Shown here in pieces: positions 5,609 to 39,376 of a stretch of DNA of 64,000 nt. A model generated the notes under the pieces. It had not been told where the DNA came from. It was given only the letters and a program-made list of their open reading frames with translations, and did not search any database. The stretch spans positions 62,001 through 126,000 of the forward strand of contig NZ_JAQMHX010000002.1 in NCBI RefSeq assembly GCF_028331445.1. The letters are read 5' to 3'. Made by a program: the position numbers and the translations under genes. Source of the DNA: Candidatus Phyllobacterium onerii. Lineage in GTDB: Bacteria; Pseudomonadota; Alphaproteobacteria; Rhizobiales; Rhizobiaceae. Each line of letters begins with the position of its first letter. The stretch's first letter is position 1.

Positions 5609-5894
5609 TTTCGCGCTTGTCTACTATGTTGCGGAGCGGAACTGATCAACGCCGAGCATGCCACCAATAGATGATTTCAGCAAACGCACTTGCCGCTAAG
5701 GGCCTTGTGACGGCGACCCCACAGGACTAGGCTGGGATGTGATCCTGTGGAACGAAGTAGGTTCTCGTTGGATCTCCGGGTGGGGAAACAAGAATGACAC
5801 TCGATCTTCTCGCTGGTGAGCGCCCGCGAGCATTCGGTTGTAAGCCCGAATGCGATGCGCGATTGAATCAAAGTGCCATCACGGACGTTCGATC

Positions 5895-6551
5895 ATGAAC
5901 GACCCGGGCCAAACCATCCGCGACGAGCCCCGCTGGGCTCCTGCGCTCGCGATACTGGTCGTGCTCGGTCTTTTTGCGGTGCTGCCCCAACATGTGCGGG
6001 CGATGCCGGTGTGGGTTTCCTACGGCGTTGCGCTTGTGGTGATCGTGCCCATGATTGTGGTCACACTCACTGCAAACACGTCGTGGACGCGCATTGAGCG
6101 GACCGCGATCATGCTTCTTGGCGCGGCCTACGTCGCCAACACGGCAGCGGAGTTGGCGGACATGATCGGCATCATCACGCTTCATCCACCGGAAACCCGC
6201 GCCGTCTCACTGCTCTCCTCATCGCTTGCAATCTGGATCGCCAATGTTTTGACCTTCTCATTGCTTTATTGGCAAATCGATCGCGGCGGGCCATCCTCGC
6301 GAGCGAGCGGCACAACAACAAAGCCGGATTGGCTCTTTCCGCAGGCGACAGCACCCGAAGTTGCCTTACCCGACTGGCAACCATTGTTCCTCGACTACCT
6401 TTTTCTCGGATACAATACGGCGACGGCATTCAGTCCAACCGATGTACTTCCGCTTACGAGACGTGCAAAGATGCTGATGATGTTGGAGAGCACGATCTCG
6501 CTGTTGACGCTTGTCATCGTCGCCGCTCGCGCGGTCAACGCCATCCCGTAG
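5895..6551 (+). CDS. Integral membrane protein, possibly DUF1345-like
   Basis: About 218 residues from ATG 5895. A longer in-frame start at 5850 adds a polar extension, and neither start has a convincing ribosome site. There are about five hydrophobic segments. Two features, DYLFLGYNTATAFSPTDVLPLT and a C-terminal helix reading MLMMLESTISLLTL, resemble DUF1345 proteins and the pore-helix region of two-TM channel-like proteins; the TAFSPTD stretch echoes a selectivity-filter loop. No function can be assigned. It is convergent with the TonB receptor gene. Confidence 0.7.
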   Translation: MNDPGQTIRDEPRWAPALAILVVLGLFAVLPQHVRAMPVWVSYGVALVVIVPMIVVTLTANTSWTRIERTAIMLLGAAYVANTAAELADMIGIITLHPPETRAVSLLSSSLAIWIANVLTFSLLYWQIDRGGPSSRASGTTTKPDWLFPQATAPEVALPDWQPLFLDYLFLGYNTATAFSPTDVLPLTRRAKMLMMLESTISLLTLVIVAARAVNAIP

Positions 6552-6741
6552 AACGGCCAAACACAGAAAACAAGAACCGCCCCATGGAGAGCGCGAGGTG
6601 CAAGCGCTCGAGCAGCATCTTTTCAACCTGACGCAAGCTAAGCGGAAAAATCAACAGCAGAGGCGCCAACAGTTCTGCAGAAAGTTTAACAGATAATCGA
6701 ATTCAGGCCAGTCGAGTTTTCTCCGGGTACGACGCCACCTG

Positions 6742-8895
6742 CTACCAGGTTAGATGGGCTTTCAGCAACGCCTTGCGTCCTTCACCATAGGAACAAACGT
6801 AAACACCCTGGCAGCCCGATACATAGTCCTTGTCGAACAGGTTGGTGACGTTCAGATCAACACCCCAATTGTTCTTCTTGTAGCCGAGTTTCAGATCCAC
6901 CAATGCCACATCGGGAACCTTCAACGTATTCAACTGGTCGGCATAGCTAGACCCGACATAACGTACACCGCCACCAAGTGCGAGGCCTTCAAGCGCGCCA
7001 TCGAGAACAGTGTACTGGGCAAAGAGCGAGGCCTGTACTTCGGGGATCAAATAGGGCTGCTTGCCGATCAGTGCCTCGTCGGCGTCTTCCTTCACTTTCA
7101 AGTCGAGAGCAGTAAAGGCGGCCGTCAGCCTCCAGGCTTCAGTGATGTTCGCTTGTGCCTCGATTTCGAAGCCACGGGAGTTGACCTCGCCGACCTGGAA
7201 TTGCGCGTTAAACGGGCCAGTGAGCACGTTCTGCTTCGTCAAATCGAACAGCGAAGCCGTGATGAGACCGTCAAAGCTTGTCGGCTGGTATTTTACGCCG
7301 ACTTCGTATTGCTGGCCGGTTTCAGGCTTTAAAAACGCAAGATTGCTGTCGACCCCGATCTCCGGACTGAAGAATGTCGCGACGCTCGCATAGGGCGTGA
7401 TCCCATTGTCGAATTCATAGGCGATACCTGCCCTGCCGCTGGCCTGGCCATCATGCCCGTCATATTCTGGCGTGCCTTGTGCGTCCGTCGTCACATAATC
7501 GTAGCGGCCGTTCAACGTGACGAGCCAGCCATCGCCAAAGCGCAGCTGGTCTTGCGCGTAAACCCCGATCTGATGGCGCTTGACGACCTGGTCGATGTAA
7601 GGCGCGAACATGGGACCTTGAGGCACGCCATAAACGGGGTCGACTGCGCTGATGGGCGTTGATGCGCCGGTTGCCTGGATCTGATCGATGTCGAAGAACT
7701 TGTATTCCGCACCAAACAGGAGCGTGTGCTCGATGGCACCGGTCGTGACCTGGCCCACAAGCTGATTGTCGACCACGAACGAATTGACCGTCGTATCGTG
7801 CATGAAATTGATGCGCGAGAGATCGTAATTGCCGTCGATCGGCTGCGCGGAGAAGGCATCGTATCCAAATGGATATAGATTGTGTTCGCGCACGCCGCTG
7901 TAGCCATAGCGAAGGTTCTGCCGCACAGTCCAGTCATTGTCGAAAGTGTGTTCCAGTTCATAGCCGATGGAGGCTTGCTCGCGGTTATAGTCGTCGATCG
8001 ACGGCTCCGTGAAATTTGCCTTGCGATCGATCTTGCCGAAGGGCGCGTCGACTACAGTTCCATAATAGGGCAGGAAGCTGCCACCGTCATGGGTAAGGTC
8101 GAGATGCGTGTAGTTGGCAAGAATGGTGAACTTCGTCACATCATCCGGCTTCCAGGTGATACTGGGCGAAATGACCCCAAGGAAATCCTTTGAAAAATCG
8201 GTATAGTTGTCACCGCCGGATATTTTGCCGTTGATGCGATAATCGACCACGTCGGATGCCTTGTCACCGATGTCGAAACCAAGGTAGCCGTTGCCATAGC
8301 TGTTGATCCCGGTTTCGACATAACGCAGACGTTCGCCGGTCGGACGCTTGCTGATGTAGTTGACGATGCCTCCGGGATTGCTGCCGCCATAAAGCACTGC
8401 AGCAGGTCCCTTCAGAACATCGATGCGCTCAATGCCGAATGTATCGATGAAGAAGCCGCCGAAGCCGAAGCTGAAATTCTGCAATCCATCGAGATATGTC
8501 CCCTTCTGCGTCGCATCGAATCCACGGATGTAGATCCAGTTCGTGTCATTATCGACGCCGAAGGGCTGGGCAAATACGCCAGAGGTATAGCGCAGGGCCT
8601 CGTCGATTTTCTGCGCACCCTGGTCATCCATCTGTTGTCTGCCGACAACCGATACAGCCTGCGGAATTTCCGCGATGGGGGTATTTGTCTTGGAGCCGGT
8701 TGCCGAGCGCTGGGCCACATAGCCATCGATCGGACCGGTTGCAGAGCCATCTGAATTGGCCCCTTCGATGACGATCGGGTCCAGCTGGATGGACGCATTG
8801 GCGTCCTGCGCACGCGTGTCGGTTGCCGTCAGCAATACAAACGCCGCCGTCCCGCCAAGCAGCGCACCAAATGCCGACCGATAGACACCACTCAT
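6742..8895 (-). CDS. TonB-dependent siderophore receptor
   Basis: 717 residues. The signal peptide ends near TDTRAQDA. A TonB-box-like stretch (DPIVIEG) follows around residue 40. The plug domain covers about 60-170, with the typical IPQAVSVV and GFFIDTFGIERIDVLKGPAAVLYG segments, and a beta-barrel runs to a C-terminal LKAHLTW, the aromatic end expected for BAM insertion. Length fits the FhuA/FoxA-like hydroxamate receptor class, though the ligand cannot be read from sequence. It would import a ferric siderophore through the outer membrane. An AGGGG ribosome site precedes the start. The adjacent AraC regulator and siderophore-interacting reductase lie on the same strand, making a coherent iron locus. 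Confidence 0.93.
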   Translation of the reverse strand: MSGVYRSAFGALLGGTAAFVLLTATDTRAQDANASIQLDPIVIEGANSDGSATGPIDGYVAQRSATGSKTNTPIAEIPQAVSVVGRQQMDDQGAQKIDEALRYTSGVFAQPFGVDNDTNWIYIRGFDATQKGTYLDGLQNFSFGFGGFFIDTFGIERIDVLKGPAAVLYGGSNPGGIVNYISKRPTGERLRYVETGINSYGNGYLGFDIGDKASDVVDYRINGKISGGDNYTDFSKDFLGVISPSITWKPDDVTKFTILANYTHLDLTHDGGSFLPYYGTVVDAPFGKIDRKANFTEPSIDDYNREQASIGYELEHTFDNDWTVRQNLRYGYSGVREHNLYPFGYDAFSAQPIDGNYDLSRINFMHDTTVNSFVVDNQLVGQVTTGAIEHTLLFGAEYKFFDIDQIQATGASTPISAVDPVYGVPQGPMFAPYIDQVVKRHQIGVYAQDQLRFGDGWLVTLNGRYDYVTTDAQGTPEYDGHDGQASGRAGIAYEFDNGITPYASVATFFSPEIGVDSNLAFLKPETGQQYEVGVKYQPTSFDGLITASLFDLTKQNVLTGPFNAQFQVGEVNSRGFEIEAQANITEAWRLTAAFTALDLKVKEDADEALIGKQPYLIPEVQASLFAQYTVLDGALEGLALGGGVRYVGSSYADQLNTLKVPDVALVDLKLGYKKNNWGVDLNVTNLFDKDYVSGCQGVYVCSYGEGRKALLKAHLTW

Positions 8896-33111: not shown

Positions 33112-35103
33112 GTGTACAACATTTCGGGAATAAGCGTTCCTGTTTACCCGCTGGGGCTCCCAATACACGCAAACGTATTGCCAAAGTTGTGTTTTGTGCC
33201 AAAGTTAGAGCGAGAGCCCAAGCACAAGCAAGATAAAGCAATCCAAGAGGCTACTCGGGGACCCACGCTGATGGACCGCAGTCAGCACAGCGAAGCGGCT
33301 TATCGCATGTACCTTATTGGACCCTTCGCGATCACTGATCCGGAGGGCAAGGTTCTGACGCCCAAATCCCAAAAGTCCCAAGCGATCCTTGCCATGCTGG
33401 CGGTCTCCCTAAGGGGATCACGTTCGAGAGTTTGGCTTCGTGACAAGCTTTGGAGCGACAGGCCTGAAGACCAGGCCTCTGCCAGTCTTCGCCAGGCACT
33501 GCTCGATATCCGGAAATGCCTGGGTGATGCACGCGATATCCTGGTGGCTGACAAGAACACCGTCTCGCTTCGCATGGACCGCATACGGCTGGATATCGAC
33601 GAAATCCTGACCGAGGGCCATCCAGCAGGAAATGACGAACTGGCTGCTGAACATTTTCTCGAAGGGGTCGACGTCAGAGACGCTGAATTCGAGGAGTGGC
33701 TTACACTGGAGCGACAGGTCTGGCAGCGTCGCTACGATGAAGGACAATTCCAGCAAAAATTTGAACCTAAGCTTGAGCTGGCGCGTCAGAACCAGGAACC
33801 GACGCCACTCGTTCCTTTAACGGCAATCAATCCGGGCAAGAATAGTGGTGGGACTGGGAATGGAGCGGCGAACGATAAAGCCAGTGACTCGAGTTCCAGC
33901 GTCAGTTCGCGGCAATGGGTTGTCGCGATCTTGCCCTCGCGCATCGCCGGACAAAGTGAAAATGGACAGATTCTTGCGGCGGGAGTGACTAATCTCATCG
34001 CAAAATCGCTTGTTGAGGGAACTGATATCCGTGTCACTGATTTTTCCTTCGGCGCAGGGCCTGGGGCGAACTCGTCGAATGATGTTGGACCGGGCAACGA
34101 GATCTCGCTGGCAACAGCCCTCGGCATACAGCTGGAACTGACGCTCGCCAGTCAAACCGCCCTTATCGTGGTGAGCATTGTGCGTTTGGCCGATCATAGC
34201 CTGATCTGGAAAGACAGTTGCATCGCTGATCGCCCGCCCCTGGAAAGAGGCGAAACCAGTCAGTTGCATGGGCTGATCAATCACTTAATCGATGAAGTCA
34301 ACGGGAGCTTTCTTTTCCGCGGCGAAGGCGGAAAGCTCGAGCGCGAAACCACTATGATCGAGGCGGTCAACTCGGTCTTTCGATTGTCTCGGGGGGATCT
34401 CGATAGAGCCGAACGCATCCTCCACAACATTGCTGCTGAGCGGCCCTCCTCCTCAGTCTATGCCTGGCTCGCCTTTATCAGGACTTTCCGCGTTGGACAG
34501 CGTTTCAATGCCTACGATTCCACCATAGTCGAAGAAGCCCAATTCTACGCCCGTAAGGCATTGGAGTTGGATGCTAACAATTCCATCGCACTTGCTCTCG
34601 TTGGACACGTCCATTCATTCTTGTTTTGCGAATACGACTATGCCGCCGGACTATTCGAGCGCGCAATCAAGCTCAACCCGGCACAACCGCTCGGTTGGGA
34701 TCTTTATTCCATGTTGCATTGTTATGCCGGGCAGCCTGAAAAGGCGTTGGCCATGGCTAACTGGGTCCAGAACCTTGGATTTTACAGCGTGCACAAATAT
34801 TACTTCGACACGACCAAGTGCATCAGTGCAGCTCTGGCCGGCGATCACGCAGCCGCCATTTCTGCGGGTGAAGACGCGCTGAAGATGCGTCCTGATTTCA
34901 ATTCTCTCTTGCGCTACATGGCAGCAAGTCATGCACATCGGGACGAGATGGAGTTGGCGGGAAAGTATGTAGAGCGGCTCGAGGCTGTCGAACCGAATTT
35001 CTCGATCGAGTCGCTCAAGGACAATCGCTACCCGCTGTTAAAAACTGGGGGAGGCAAGATGCTGATCGCCGGGCTTACCAAGGCCGGTGTCAAGCTTCGG
35101 TAA
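33112..35103 (+). CDS. SARP-type winged-helix regulator with C-terminal TPR region
   Basis: 663 residues from GTG 33112, which has GGGAG seven bases upstream; ATG 33271 is an alternative. An N-terminal winged-helix DNA-binding domain covers about 64-160 (YLIGPFAITD, SQAILAMLAVSL, LWSDRPEDQASASLRQALLDI), as in SARP/OmpR-type regulators of the BTAD class. The middle (about 270-370) resembles the soluble sensor segment of adenylate-cyclase-like and SARP regulators, with VVAILPSRIAGQSENGQI. The last 250 residues contain TPR-like repeats (for example LEQ-type AIKLNPAQPLGWDLYSML). It probably controls the downstream haloperoxidase-like and protease genes. Confidence 0.82.
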   Translation: MYNISGISVPVYPLGLPIHANVLPKLCFVPKLEREPKHKQDKAIQEATRGPTLMDRSQHSEAAYRMYLIGPFAITDPEGKVLTPKSQKSQAILAMLAVSLRGSRSRVWLRDKLWSDRPEDQASASLRQALLDIRKCLGDARDILVADKNTVSLRMDRIRLDIDEILTEGHPAGNDELAAEHFLEGVDVRDAEFEEWLTLERQVWQRRYDEGQFQQKFEPKLELARQNQEPTPLVPLTAINPGKNSGGTGNGAANDKASDSSSSVSSRQWVVAILPSRIAGQSENGQILAAGVTNLIAKSLVEGTDIRVTDFSFGAGPGANSSNDVGPGNEISLATALGIQLELTLASQTALIVVSIVRLADHSLIWKDSCIADRPPLERGETSQLHGLINHLIDEVNGSFLFRGEGGKLERETTMIEAVNSVFRLSRGDLDRAERILHNIAAERPSSSVYAWLAFIRTFRVGQRFNAYDSTIVEEAQFYARKALELDANNSIALALVGHVHSFLFCEYDYAAGLFERAIKLNPAQPLGWDLYSMLHCYAGQPEKALAMANWVQNLGFYSVHKYYFDTTKCISAALAGDHAAAISAGEDALKMRPDFNSLLRYMAASHAHRDEMELAGKYVERLEAVEPNFSIESLKDNRYPLLKTGGGKMLIAGLTKAGVKLR

Positions 35104-35130
35104 TTCTTCCTCAATCAAAATTCGGCTCGA

Positions 35131-36087
35131 ATGGATGAAGGATACGCGAAAATGGTCAACGTTGCTGCGCAATCGCCGCTGATACAGTTCCTGAACAATT
35201 TTCGATTTGAGGTCGATGCCGATCATGTATCGCCCTGCCCACCTTTGCCGTTCGCTGAGGTTGACGCAGCGGTGGATGGGGCCGGTATCAACATCCCGGG
35301 GGCACCTCTAGCCGGAGCCGCCACGGCGAGCGGCGGTGTTGCCAACAAATCGGTGCTGAACAAATCCTCGCTGAACAAGAACAAGAACAAGAACAAAACC
35401 TCATTCGGCGGAATCAGCACCGGCAATGCACAGTTGATACCTGCATTCCAGTTGCGCAGGCTCCACCAACAGCCTTCCCGGAACGCTTTTACCACCGCCG
35501 CTCGGTTTACGTGGGAGATGCTCGACATTACTCCACCTCCAGGCCCGGATTTCAGTCGCCTTGAAACCAAAGTGATGCTGTCGATGCAGAAGCGCGACCG
35601 CGAAAGGGCCAGACGACTCCCGGATATTCAACAGGAAGCTTCGCTATCGGTCGGCGAGTTTACACGACCTCTCTATATCGAGAACATAGCCGGGTTCGAA
35701 CAGACCGAGGGGCTTTTTCAGAGCATCCTGACCGCTTGCGAATATGTTGGGCTCATTTACAAGAATAAATTCAATCGGTTGCGACCCAGTCAGTTTGAAC
35801 CGCGACTGCGACCGCTTCTGGCAGTTCCAGCGCACGAATCCTTCCAAAGCAATCATGCATTCCAATGCTTTTCCATTGTGTTTGCATTCAACACGATCCT
35901 TCCTGAGCATCCAGCGACCGAAGAGTTGGCGCGAATTGCTCAGAATGTTGCAGAGAATCGAGAATGGGCCGGCCTGCATTATCCGAGCGATACGAAAGCA
36001 GGACGTGATCTGGCCCGCCGGTTTGCTCCTTATCTGAGAGATGCGTTCGCCGCCACGTACAACGCGGTACACAAGGAATGGGTGTGA
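35131..36087 (+). CDS. PAP2/vanadium haloperoxidase-fold enzyme
   Basis: 318 residues from ATG 35131; ATG 35152, which has GAAGGA upstream, would give 311. The three active-site motifs of the PAP2/vanadium-haloperoxidase superfamily are present: K211-x6-R218-P219, a QSNH242 in place of PSGH, and R277-x5-H283-x3-D287. The residues around the central His differ from canonical acid phosphatases. No signal peptide, so probably cytoplasmic. A lysine/asparagine-rich linker (about 72-90) carries an AACAAG repeat. It could be a haloperoxidase, a phosphatase or an inactive relative; follows the SARP regulator by 27 bases. Confidence 0.78.
   Translation: MDEGYAKMVNVAAQSPLIQFLNNFRFEVDADHVSPCPPLPFAEVDAAVDGAGINIPGAPLAGAATASGGVANKSVLNKSSLNKNKNKNKTSFGGISTGNAQLIPAFQLRRLHQQPSRNAFTTAARFTWEMLDITPPPGPDFSRLETKVMLSMQKRDRERARRLPDIQQEASLSVGEFTRPLYIENIAGFEQTEGLFQSILTACEYVGLIYKNKFNRLRPSQFEPRLRPLLAVPAHESFQSNHAFQCFSIVFAFNTILPEHPATEELARIAQNVAENREWAGLHYPSDTKAGRDLARRFAPYLRDAFAATYNAVHKEWV
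35346..35399 (+). repeat. In-frame Asn-Lys repeat within the haloperoxidase-like gene
   Basis: A degenerate array of AACAA(G/A) hexamers encodes a run rich in Asn-Lys pairs (NKNKNKNK and neighbours). It looks like a slippage-prone microsatellite that lengthens a flexible linker; unit number may vary between strains. Confidence 0.6.
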
Positions 36088-36125
36088 AGAAAGTGCATTC
36101 ATCTTCAGTGGTTCCTCTAGGGTAA

Positions 36126-37838
36126 ATGAGGTTACAGATGGCCCTCCAATCAGACAACACGAAGGCTGCGCCTGCCGGCTACTATTATCTCTGGCATTTG
36201 GCTGCTCTGGGAGTGATTACGGCGGACTTCGGATCTTCGAGTGGTTCGATTCCCCCCAACAATGAAAGTGCGCTGCGCATCACGCCTTCTCCTGTTATTT
36301 CCGGTTCTGTCTGGGACACCCTTGCAGAGGTGGCTGCGATCTCGCCTGCGAGGGTGGCGCTCATTGACGTCGGCATATCTCCAGATCACCCGAACCTGGC
36401 AACCCGGATCGATCAGAATGCCTCTATTGACCTGGCAACGCACAGATACGGTGCGCGTGCGTTGGCCATCCTCGACGATACAAATAGTTCCTACAAGGAA
36501 GAGAAACAGGCGTTCTTTGCCGAACTCGACATATCCGGACTCGGCAACCTCGGACTATCGGTTGATGACAAGGAATACCTGGATGATATTGTGGCGGAGT
36601 ATGCTGGTTCCTATGGCGTATTGCGCCGGATTCTCGATTCGAACACCATGTTCGCCGCTCACGGCACTGCCTGTGCCGGTTTAATCGTGGCCGAGCCCGC
36701 CGCATTGGCCACGGAAGACAGCGAAATCCTGTCTCCACCAGAAGACATCTTTACGAATCCCGATTCAACCGAGACCCATCCCAACAAAAATCCCAACCTG
36801 TTACCGTATTTTGGCGCTGATCCTTTTTCGCGCCTCGTCAACATTACGACTTCGTTCGAAGACAATCCTGTGCAGTTCATCGCCGCACTCCTTTATGCGT
36901 ATTTGCAGAACGTTGACGTCATCGTCATGCCCCGCGGCATACCCGATCCGAAGCGAAGCGCCATTGAGCCCAAGAACGAATTGAAGGCCGACTTGGAGCG
37001 CTGGGCCAATCGTGATGCTGCGGATCTATTTGCACGCATCGCCCTGGCAGAACAGGGACCGGCGGAACTCGAGCCCAAGGCAACGCAGCTGGGTTCCAAT
37101 CCGGACCGCATATGGACGATCCTGGAACATTTGATCATTGCTGTGAGCCGAAAGATTCCGGTGATCTGCGCTGCCGGCAACAGTGGCGAAAGCCAGCTGA
37201 TCTATCCGGCGAGCCTCGCAGCTCCCGACAACGGGATCATCGCGGTCGGCGCCGTCACGGTTGAAGGTTTCCGGTCCGGCTATAGCAATTATGGCGAAGG
37301 TCTAACGCTCGTTGCGCCCTCTGATGATGGGGAGGTCTTCAATCGCCATCAATTGCGGATCAATCGGCTGTCACCCTTGATCGCCAAGCATCAATATAAC
37401 GCGGATCCCGGCAAGGAATATTGCTATTCGCAGTTCAGCCTTCTCAGCACAGACCTTCCGGGGGTCTTTGGTTATGATGAAGGAAAAGCTCCCTGGTCCT
37501 CACTGCTTCCCTCTGCCAATAATCCCGGCATTGGTGGCGGTTACTATACCAGCTTTGGCGGCACGTCCGGGGCCGCAGCCTTGGTCGGCGGCGTCGCGGC
37601 TCTCGTACAACGGGCCCATCGTGCCGTTCACGGTGGGTCAGGCAGGCTAGACGGTATAGCCGTCAAGTCTATCCTCGAGGAAGCGTCCAGCCGAAGCAGC
37701 AATGTTGGACCGGGTTTTCGTCCCCTCACCCCCGACTGCATGAATGCGGACAATGAAGATGTCATCGATTCCAGGTATTTCTTTGGAGCGGGACTTCTTA
37801 ACGCCGCCGCCGCTGTCGATGTCGTGTTGAACAGTTGA
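36126..37838 (+). CDS. Subtilisin-like (S8) serine protease without signal peptide
   Basis: 570 residues from ATG 36126; ATG 36138 is also possible. The catalytic triad is intact: Asp81 in ALIDVGISPDHPN, His179 in HGTACAGLI, and Ser481 in GGTSGAAALVGG. Asn352 in CAAGNSGES supplies the oxyanion hole. No Sec signal or obvious prodomain is seen, and large inserts lie between Asp and His and before the Ser. It is 38 bases downstream of the haloperoxidase-like gene. An intracellular protease working with, or processing, the neighbouring proteins is possible; substrate unknown. Confidence 0.85.
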   Translation: MRLQMALQSDNTKAAPAGYYYLWHLAALGVITADFGSSSGSIPPNNESALRITPSPVISGSVWDTLAEVAAISPARVALIDVGISPDHPNLATRIDQNASIDLATHRYGARALAILDDTNSSYKEEKQAFFAELDISGLGNLGLSVDDKEYLDDIVAEYAGSYGVLRRILDSNTMFAAHGTACAGLIVAEPAALATEDSEILSPPEDIFTNPDSTETHPNKNPNLLPYFGADPFSRLVNITTSFEDNPVQFIAALLYAYLQNVDVIVMPRGIPDPKRSAIEPKNELKADLERWANRDAADLFARIALAEQGPAELEPKATQLGSNPDRIWTILEHLIIAVSRKIPVICAAGNSGESQLIYPASLAAPDNGIIAVGAVTVEGFRSGYSNYGEGLTLVAPSDDGEVFNRHQLRINRLSPLIAKHQYNADPGKEYCYSQFSLLSTDLPGVFGYDEGKAPWSSLLPSANNPGIGGGYYTSFGGTSGAAALVGGVAALVQRAHRAVHGGSGRLDGIAVKSILEEASSRSSNVGPGFRPLTPDCMNADNEDVIDSRYFFGAGLLNAAAAVDVVLNS

Positions 37839-37860
37839 CGCAGAGGCCAACAAAACATCC

Positions 37861-37895
37861 AAAAAGGACCCGCCCGCGGGTCCTTTTTATGTTTT
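37861..37895 (+). terminator. Intrinsic terminator after the S8 protease gene
   Basis: AAAAAGGACCCG and CGGGTCCTTTTT form a perfect 12-bp stem with a four-base loop (37861-37888), starting 22 bases after the stop codon. The flanking AAAACAT/ATGTTTT can extend it. The stem itself supplies the T-run. It ends the SARP-haloperoxidase-protease unit. Confidence 0.88.
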
Positions 37896-38333: not shown

Positions 38334-38570
38334 ATGGTTTTAAAGCGTGAAATATCGATAGACGACTGGGAAGCATTGAACCGCCTGTCACAGGGCGAAA
38401 CGATCCGGCGAATAGATGGTCGCGCGGTTCAACGCCTAACTGAGATCGGCGCACTGCGTAGCAGAGGAGGAGAAATCAAACTCTCCTACGCCGCAATGCA
38501 GCTTTTGATCGAACGCTCGGCACGTATTTGCCGCGCTCGAAACGGCAACAGCAAAACGTGGTGCAATTGA
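38334..38570 (+). CDS. Hypothetical small protein (78 residues)
   Basis: Predicted 78 residues from ATG 38334, with GGAG ten bases upstream. Helical and charged: ISIDDWEALNRLSQGE and AMQLLIERSARIC are the clearest parts. No family recognised. It lies just upstream of a LuxR-type regulator on the same strand. The open frame extends further upstream to 38055, so the true start is uncertain. Confidence 0.4.
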   Translation: MVLKREISIDDWEALNRLSQGETIRRIDGRAVQRLTEIGALRSRGGEIKLSYAAMQLLIERSARICRARNGNSKTWCN

Positions 38571-38620: not shown

Positions 38621-39376
38621 ATGTCAGGAATTATGTATGAACGAATACCGGATGCTGATCACGCCGTTTACAATCGGCATGCGGCGGCCCGCCGTGCAGC
38701 GTTCCACATCGCATCGACAGAACCCCGTCCACAACGGACCCTTGCCATTATTGACGGACGTGCCATTGCTCGAGAGCATCTTTCGAGGGGGCTTATATCG
38801 AATGGACTTGGACTGCGCTTGGCCACATATGGCTCTGTGAACGATATAGAGGCATATGAAGCAGCGGCATTGTCAGTCATCCTTGTATGCGTCGACGACT
38901 CCAGATTCATGGATAATTCCATTGTGCTAGAAATCGGGGCGCTTGTACGAAGATTTCCGAAAGTCCCAGTCATTGTTCAGGCGGGCCTGTGCGGATTTCA
39001 GCAAATCCTGAGCGTTCTCCAGCAAGGTGCCCATGGTTACCTTCCAGGCAATGCCGGAATATCTGTTTGCATCGAAGCAATATCGATGGCGTTGGCAGGT
39101 GGTGTTTTCGTCGCGGCCAAGAACCGGCATGATATGCAAAGCATCCTCGGAACCAACCCTCATCCGTCCAAGCGTTTGGAAATGTTCACACGACGGGAAC
39201 GTGAGGTCATCGAAGTCCTGCGGCAGGGAAAGGCAAACAAAACGATTGCCTATGCCCTCAGGCTTGCTCCAAACACTGTGAAAGTTCACGTTCGAAATAT
39301 CCTCAAGAAGGTTCGGGCGACGAACCGGGCGGAAGCAATTTACAAAATCAACGCCATGTTTGATGAGATCGCATAG
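38621..39376 (+). CDS. LuxR-type response regulator-like protein
   Basis: 251 residues with GGGGA upstream of ATG 38621. The C-terminal LuxR HTH is clear: FTRREREVIEVLRQGKANKT and APNTVKVHVRNILKKVRA. The N-terminal half resembles a receiver domain (FPKVPVIVQAGLCGFQQIL and GAHGYLPGN), but its first acidic pocket reads IIDGR instead of the usual Asp pair, so phosphorylation is doubtful and it may be an orphan regulator. It is flanked by a terminator on each side. Confidence 0.87.
   Translation: MSGIMYERIPDADHAVYNRHAAARRAAFHIASTEPRPQRTLAIIDGRAIAREHLSRGLISNGLGLRLATYGSVNDIEAYEAAALSVILVCVDDSRFMDNSIVLEIGALVRRFPKVPVIVQAGLCGFQQILSVLQQGAHGYLPGNAGISVCIEAISMALAGGVFVAAKNRHDMQSILGTNPHPSKRLEMFTRREREVIEVLRQGKANKTIAYALRLAPNTVKVHVRNILKKVRATNRAEAIYKINAMFDEIA

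Follow-up and report, generated by a model that had tools for sequence, protein, structure and literature searches.

This report concerns a three-gene system in a stretch of 64,000 nucleotides from Candidatus Phyllobacterium onerii (contig NZ_JAQMHX010000002.1, positions 62,001 to 126,000), here called the window. Three neighbouring genes code for a regulator, a soluble enzyme with the PAP2 fold and an S8 subtilase, and the PAP2 protein carries an exact tandem repeat in its N-terminal part. Sequence comparison suggests that the genes form a dedicated three-part system, which recurs in distant bacteria with repeats that differ from lineage to lineage. A linked set of sensor, enzyme and protease, with an exact repeat that is selected yet rewritten between lineages, fits no system found in the searches. 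The earlier note on this DNA had not recognised a described system of this composition, and a search of the open-access literature, with most subscription papers outside its coverage, likewise showed no description of one.

The main evidence is the recurrent linkage of the three families. A first scan compared the window PAP2 protein with genome contigs through peptide patterns taken from it, the NK repeat included; such a scan reaches close relatives only. It gave at least 14 loci, and all 14 have the order regulator, PAP2, S8 on one strand. They come from Phyllobacterium, Rhizobium, Neorhizobium, Pseudorhizobium, Aminobacter, Mesorhizobium, Roseovarius, Aliiroseovarius and a Rhizobiales isolate. 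The nearest named relative among the matches listed is Phyllobacterium bourgognense, whose PAP2 protein is 90% identical. Of the 72,556 records in a plasmid collection, 100 match the window PAP2 protein, and in 66 of these the match covers at least 80% of the query; a PAP2 protein of the FGGNW type gave no match as a query in the plasmid search. The S8 gene occurs in 9 of the 20 Phyllobacterium genomes searched (the window genome counted), and the module is therefore accessory.

Wider searches extend the linkage to more distant relatives. In the order, 62 of 397 genomes have PAP2 matches, which include many ordinary PAP2 proteins; in the phylum, 216 of 398 genomes have one. Extended stretches were taken from the order search (40), the phylum search (20) and the genus searches (19), and weaker matches, which make up most of those in the phylum search, were left out. 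The linkage persists in alpha- and betaproteobacteria even where PAP2 identity is as low as about 25-30%. Annotated examples are Phaeobacter inhibens P66, with winged helix, PAP2 and S8, and Roseibium aggregatum, with cyclase, PAP2 and S8. Paraburkholderia phymatum and Caballeronia zhejiangensis are betaproteobacterial examples. Among distant relatives, the regulator, or the regulator together with the protease, can lie beside the PAP2 gene on the opposite strand (loci L054-L057, L065, L066, L079 and L080). Further opposite-strand cases are L161, L162, L164, L166 and L214. A single transcript is therefore not universal.

For counting, 91 PAP2 rows were kept after removal of five duplicate loci and of rows below 50 bits. 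Array, regulator and protease are all present in 76 rows and all absent in 11; 4 rows are mixed. Where a regulator lies within 600 bases, a protease is present in 76 of 79 counted rows. The earlier note had looked to recurrent linkage for support and to scattered homologues for refutation. Recurrent linkage is strongly supported and scattering was not found, either in the scan (14 of 14 loci among the matches listed) or overall (76 of 91 rows). The association between array and regulator has a Fisher p of 3e-12, uncorrected for kinship in a set with many closely related rows. A later check on 20 further PAP2 loci gave 3 with all three features, 16 with none and 1 mixed, and all 3 full sets have A4-like proteases. 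Partial sets also occur. For instance, L046 has a regulator only, with neither array nor detected protease, and L167 has array and protease, with a regulator-like gene about 2 kb off on the other strand.

The array belongs to the PAP2 protein. When arrays of at least 8 residues are counted protein by protein (rows above 100 bits, duplicates kept), they occur in 84 of 86 rows of the PAP2 model. None is seen in the 53 and 34 regulator rows, the 42, 35 and 4 S8 rows, 2 A4 rows, 17 HEXXH rows or 18 ThiF rows. Repeats common to the regulator or the protease were considered and rejected, as none of at least 8 residues exists in the modelled rows. As a background, 5 of 1823 other mechanically called open reading frames (ORFs) of at least 200 residues from these stretches have a tandem run of at least 9 residues within their first 160.

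In the window, the array is (NK)4. It covers residues 82-89 of the PAP2 protein (35374-35397, plus strand), with VANKSVLNKSSL in front of it and looser xxNK units from 35338. Linked PAP2 proteins in general have one unit of 2-5 residues tandemly repeated in their N-terminal part. The units total 33 distinct sequences, and perfect runs range from 8 to 51 residues with a median of 18, the window run of 8 being among the shortest. NK is the unit in 34 of 79 arrays. Other units include NR, GGA, GGH, GGV, GGI, GGF, LNG, LGS, AGM, GMH, NSF, TGN, SGGE, GGNWF, QTQ and MT.

The array sequence is kept at the protein level: synonymous variants far outnumber amino-acid changes. In 79 arrays with 1854 codons, 780 codon variants are synonymous and 25 change the amino acid. 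The second figure is an undercount, since detection required a perfect run and extension allowed no more than one mismatch per unit. No amino-acid change is present in 65 of the 79. Since the arrays hold synonymous variation, DNA slippage is rejected as their only origin. Copy number shifts by whole units: NSF occurs 5, 6 or 7 times in Phaeobacter plasmids, and GGH occurs 8 times in one and 17 times in the other of L055 and L056 (draft assemblies), whose PAP2 domains are 99% identical.

The unit itself can switch between related rows, as in GVT/AGV, GGF/NSF and GSL/GSF. In the GVT/AGV pair, the S8 proteins are 82% identical and the regulators 85%. Because units switch while S8 and regulator remain similar, these comparisons suggest that neither partner reads the unit. 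Co-variation of the unit with protease or regulator was also considered and gave no clear signal: among 21 same-unit and 380 different-unit pairs, which are not independent, same-unit pairs have a protease similarity excess of +0.009 and a slight regulator excess of +0.058.

Two observations on individual arrays may be added. As publicly annotated, the PAP2 gene of R. johnstonii 3841 (L085, 10196-11008) begins 3' of the NK array, while the frame is open from 9977; the array is therefore missing from the annotated protein. In L205 (Parasedimentitalea marina pW43B), the PAP2 and S8 frames are interrupted, and the NSF array is still readable upstream.

The PAP2 gene lies at 35131-36087 on the plus strand. 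Its product matches Pfam PAP2 with E 3.8e-6 and 27.1 bits, just below the gathering score of 27.2. The superfamily motif K-x6-RP ... SxH ... R-x5-H is intact, with residues K211, R218, S240-N241-H242, R277 and H283. The catalytic K, R, H, R and H are kept in 95 of 95 aligned PAP2 rows, 91 of which bear arrays. Among solved structures, the nearest are class A acid phosphatases, which are soluble. One of these, 7f17, matches with E 8.5e-28 by profile and E 3.6e-8 by fold in Foldseek (TM 0.75 of target). Haloperoxidases are weaker, at best 1.8e-12 by profile and 9.2e-4 by fold. In the AlphaFold monomer, the domain is confident and residues 41-101, including the array, have a predicted local distance difference test (pLDDT) value below 50. 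Going by this model, the N-terminal tail is probably disordered.

The regulator gene is open over 33112-35103 on the plus strand. Its real start is probably the ATG at 33271, giving 610 residues; the P. zundukense homologue is annotated at 606. A SARP-like winged helix at about residues 60-200 is combined with a CadC-like/TolB-like domain and a TPR superhelix. Pfam finds TPR repeats, every TPR model staying below its own cut-off, and in a fold search the best matches of the C-terminal half are the CadC periplasmic domain and TPR superhelices. The label SARP, given in the earlier note, agrees with a weak AfsR match at the N-terminus (24.4 bits, residues 47-164), but it does not describe the CadC-like half with TPRs, and BTAD (PF03704) is not listed for this protein at E 0.1. 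BTAD is present in the relative from L047 (E 5.6e-6).

The front half of the regulator varies among relatives. A winged helix in some loci, and a class III cyclase in others, precedes the common CadC-like/TPR half. The 97 loci comprise 63 winged-helix regulators (by a model built for the purpose), 22 cyclases and 12 assigned to neither. Nine of those 12 come from Phaeobacter or Parasedimentitalea plasmids or other close kin, and L191, the single one checked by Pfam, has Trans_reg_C. The regulator profile has 8 matches in the whole 6.0-Mb window genome, the window regulator counted.

The protease gene (36126-37838, plus strand) codes for a subtilase that matches Pfam Peptidase_S8 with E 3.1e-18. 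The complete catalytic triad described in the earlier note is present as D81, H179 and S481, together with N352, and a conserved YYYLWHL motif lies N-terminal. Of 76 rows, 70 have the S8 motif patterns in the right order. Among the six exceptions are the two fragments of the L179 gene. In this Phyllobacterium relative (G816, 5643-7359), the S8 gene is split in two frames, and regulator and PAP2 are open. The protease slot is swappable, since some lineages have a Peptidase A4 in place of S8. Examples are L053 and L154, recognised by Pfam, and L241, L242 and L243, recognised by a purpose-built model. S8b relatives lacking a PAP2 partner were also considered. They were rejected, as all 5 strong matches of a class search (L213, L214, L159 in G697, and L162 and L165 in G537) adjoin a PAP2-array gene. 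The weaker S8b matches L215 and L216 have no PAP2-array neighbour.

The arrangement of the window locus is confirmed as first described. The ORF coordinates bear out three adjacent genes on one strand, with gaps of 27 bases between regulator and PAP2 and 38 bases between PAP2 and S8. A terminator-like site follows at 37861-37888 (plus strand), with a 12-bp stem and then a T-rich tail. The proteins had been said to lack signal peptides, and no hydrophobic N-terminal stretch is seen in the three translations when judged by eye. Promoters between the genes, named beforehand as a refuting outcome, were not found: the locus has 2 sigma-70-like matches against a mean of 4.2 in shuffles, and the sole plus-strand match (36565-36592) lies within the S8 gene. 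What the earlier note overlooked is the (NK)4 array.

Beyond the terminator lies an ORF of 78 residues (38334-38570, plus strand), with a homologue at the equivalent place in P. zundukense. It is probably outside the operon. A LuxR-type regulator follows it at 38621-39376. In P. zundukense, the 78-residue ORF and a response regulator are likewise found 3' of the trio.

Some loci have accessory genes. An aKG-HExxH-type gene follows S8 in 17 of 34 NK loci, with ThiF further downstream. These 17 loci make up exactly one supported branch (100/97), which holds Rhizobium and Neorhizobium loci. The aKG-HExxH protein of R. johnstonii 3841 matches TIGR04267, a peptide hydroxylase family, with E 1.7e-21. 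In L184 (G421), the gene is in fragments downstream of S8, beside an open trio and ThiF. The window genome has no aKG-HExxH gene. HExxH with a ribosomally synthesized and post-translationally modified peptide (RiPP) is rejected as the core of the system, because this genome lacks the gene and only half of the NK loci carry it. A separate precursor 3' of ThiF is rejected as well, as a small ORF exists there only in L032, L033, L034 and L085, which are R. leguminosarum-type loci. No exporter is found among the gene families common to most loci. In 9 of 30 loci there is a member of an ABC-ATPase group, its distance differing from locus to locus.

The preferred reading, with a probability of roughly 0.35, is that the module is a sensor-controlled, protease-gated and repeat-tailed hydrolase with a homotypic assembly tail. 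The three components would form a self-contained module in the cytoplasm. A dedicated sensor-regulator, with a DNA-binding or cyclase output and a CadC-like/TPR sensory half, would control the operon and its PAP2-type hydrolase, a putative phosphatase. The identical repeats would pack with those of neighbouring enzyme copies. The adjacent dedicated endopeptidase, S8 or A4, would cut the array or the tail, and this proteolysis would release or activate the hydrolase. Because the repeats would pack homotypically, every unit of an array would have to match, and the whole array could be switched with its partners unchanged. That arrays do switch while the partners stay similar, with no same-unit protease excess, is why the homotypic assembly tail is preferred; peptide release is ranked next, and simple zymogen or stability control last of these three.

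Several points weigh against an assembly tail. In L058, array and regulator stand at a contig end, where S8 is matched only weakly and in part. L168, which also has both, shows no recognised protease and adjoins a 983-residue protein without a Pfam match. In L245, from the later sample, a regulator-like neighbour is accompanied by neither array nor protease. Amino-acid changes occur inside 14 of the 79 arrays, and the Ser position of the PAP2 site is another residue in 4 of 95 rows (Ser in 91). As for tail cleavage and tail assembly, all that AlphaFold yields is a monomer tail of low confidence. The units are as different as GGA, NK, MT and QTQ, and they suggest no obvious way of packing common to all. 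Exact repeats next to a protease suggest a sequence-specific use, as for a multi-copy peptide. The presence of aKG-HExxH and ThiF in 17 of 34 NK loci suits a model with a peptide product better.

In such a peptide model, the PAP2 enzyme would carry a multi-copy peptide precursor in the form of its array, and the dedicated protease would free short peptides such as NK, GGA or LGS. HExxH and ThiF would tailor them in Rhizobium and Neorhizobium, and the TPR half of the regulator would sense them. The model is possible but doubtful. It would account for the exact multi-copy repeats, the amino-acid constraint, the lineage-specific units, the protease near 76 of 79 PAP2 genes with a regulator, and the TIGR04267 and ThiF proteins downstream. 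In Pseudomonas RiPPs, runs of several Gln residues are hydroxylated by two HEXXH enzymes (PMC12636437). In the RRNPPA family of Bacillota, proteases cut propeptides with several pheromone copies (PMC11343458). However, no exporter is common to most loci (ABC-ATPase in 9 of 30), the HEXXH gene is limited to half of the NK loci, once in fragments, and is missing from the window genome, the same-unit excess is only +0.009 for proteases and +0.058 for regulators, and units such as GGA offer little side-chain chemistry for modification. An unlikely stronger form is a new class of peptide system, with the PAP2 array as an in-cis precursor, cut by S8 or A4, and lineage-specific peptides sensed by a TPR regulator or cyclase. 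If true, it would be a Gram-negative counterpart of peptide pheromones whose specificity switches rapidly, and the Rhizobium and Neorhizobium peptides would be hydroxylated by the aKG-HExxH enzyme.

Control of activity or stability without assembly is another explanation that is not likely. Here the low-complexity tail would either give the protease a handle or withstand degradation, and would set the level of active PAP2 enzyme. The low-confidence modelled tail, the adjacent protease and the whole-unit copy variation (5, 6 or 7) among Phaeobacter strains are in keeping with this, but the exact keeping of each unit is left unexplained. The earlier note's own view, an oxidant or antagonism pathway based on a vanadium haloperoxidase, is improbable. 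Its label of PAP2/vanadium-haloperoxidase fold is supported for the PAP2 fold and motif, but not for a haloperoxidase as such. The motif is intact, and is common to PAP2 phosphatases too; there is weak fold similarity to 4cit and NapH3, and algal bromoperoxidase profiles match down to 1.8e-12. Against this, the closest structures are class A acid phosphatases, no secretion signal is visible, and no defence model matches beyond a weak subtilase. With PADLOC 2023, the trio gives 'subtilase' only (17.4 bits, E 5.9e-4), and the other two proteins give nothing at E 0.1. A known anti-phage or defence system is rejected on this result, and the suggested antagonistic or stress role finds no evidence in it. 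Finally, chance neighbours of unrelated function, with repeats made by DNA slippage, are hardly credible. Whole-unit copy changes in close strains show slippage-like events, and nothing favours chance linkage. The linkage and repeat statistics, the 780 synonymous variant codons inside arrays and the few regulator-profile matches (8 in 6.0 Mb, the window's own included) speak against it.

The question raised by the module is what reads or needs identical repeats of freely changeable sequence. An answer could reveal Gram-negative peptide signalling, self-assembly or protease-gated enzyme control, and its relevance extends to symbionts such as Rhizobium johnstonii 3841.

Parts of the module resemble known systems. 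RRNPPA receptors are TPR proteins, and in this kind of quorum sensing they bind a propeptide that was exported and taken up again. RRNPPA systems with duplicated propeptides share with the module a protease and repeated peptide units, and would share a cytoplasmic peptide receptor (PMC11343458). Here, in contrast, the units are fused to an enzyme, an export signal is not seen, the hosts are proteobacterial and the fold search places the regulator nearest to CadC and not to RRNPPA. The HExxH and ThiF genes that adjoin the module in one Rhizobium/Neorhizobium branch resemble those of RiPP clusters with aKG-HExxH enzymes (PMC12636437); here there is no conserved separate precursor, and HExxH is absent from the window genome. 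CadC/ToxR-like and SARP/AfsR regulators share a winged helix and a CadC-like/TPR half with the window regulator. This protein differs from the former in having no transmembrane segment visible by eye, and from the latter in that BTAD is not listed for it. Vanadium-dependent haloperoxidases (4cit; NapH3, 8cxl) share superfamily and residues with the window PAP2 protein, but match it more weakly in fold and sequence. Class A non-specific acid phosphatases of the PhoN/PhoC type (7f17, 1d2t) share its soluble PAP2 fold and catalytic motif. Unlike them, the window protein has no signal peptide visible by eye, and it combines this fold with a repeat array and with linkage to a regulator and a protease.

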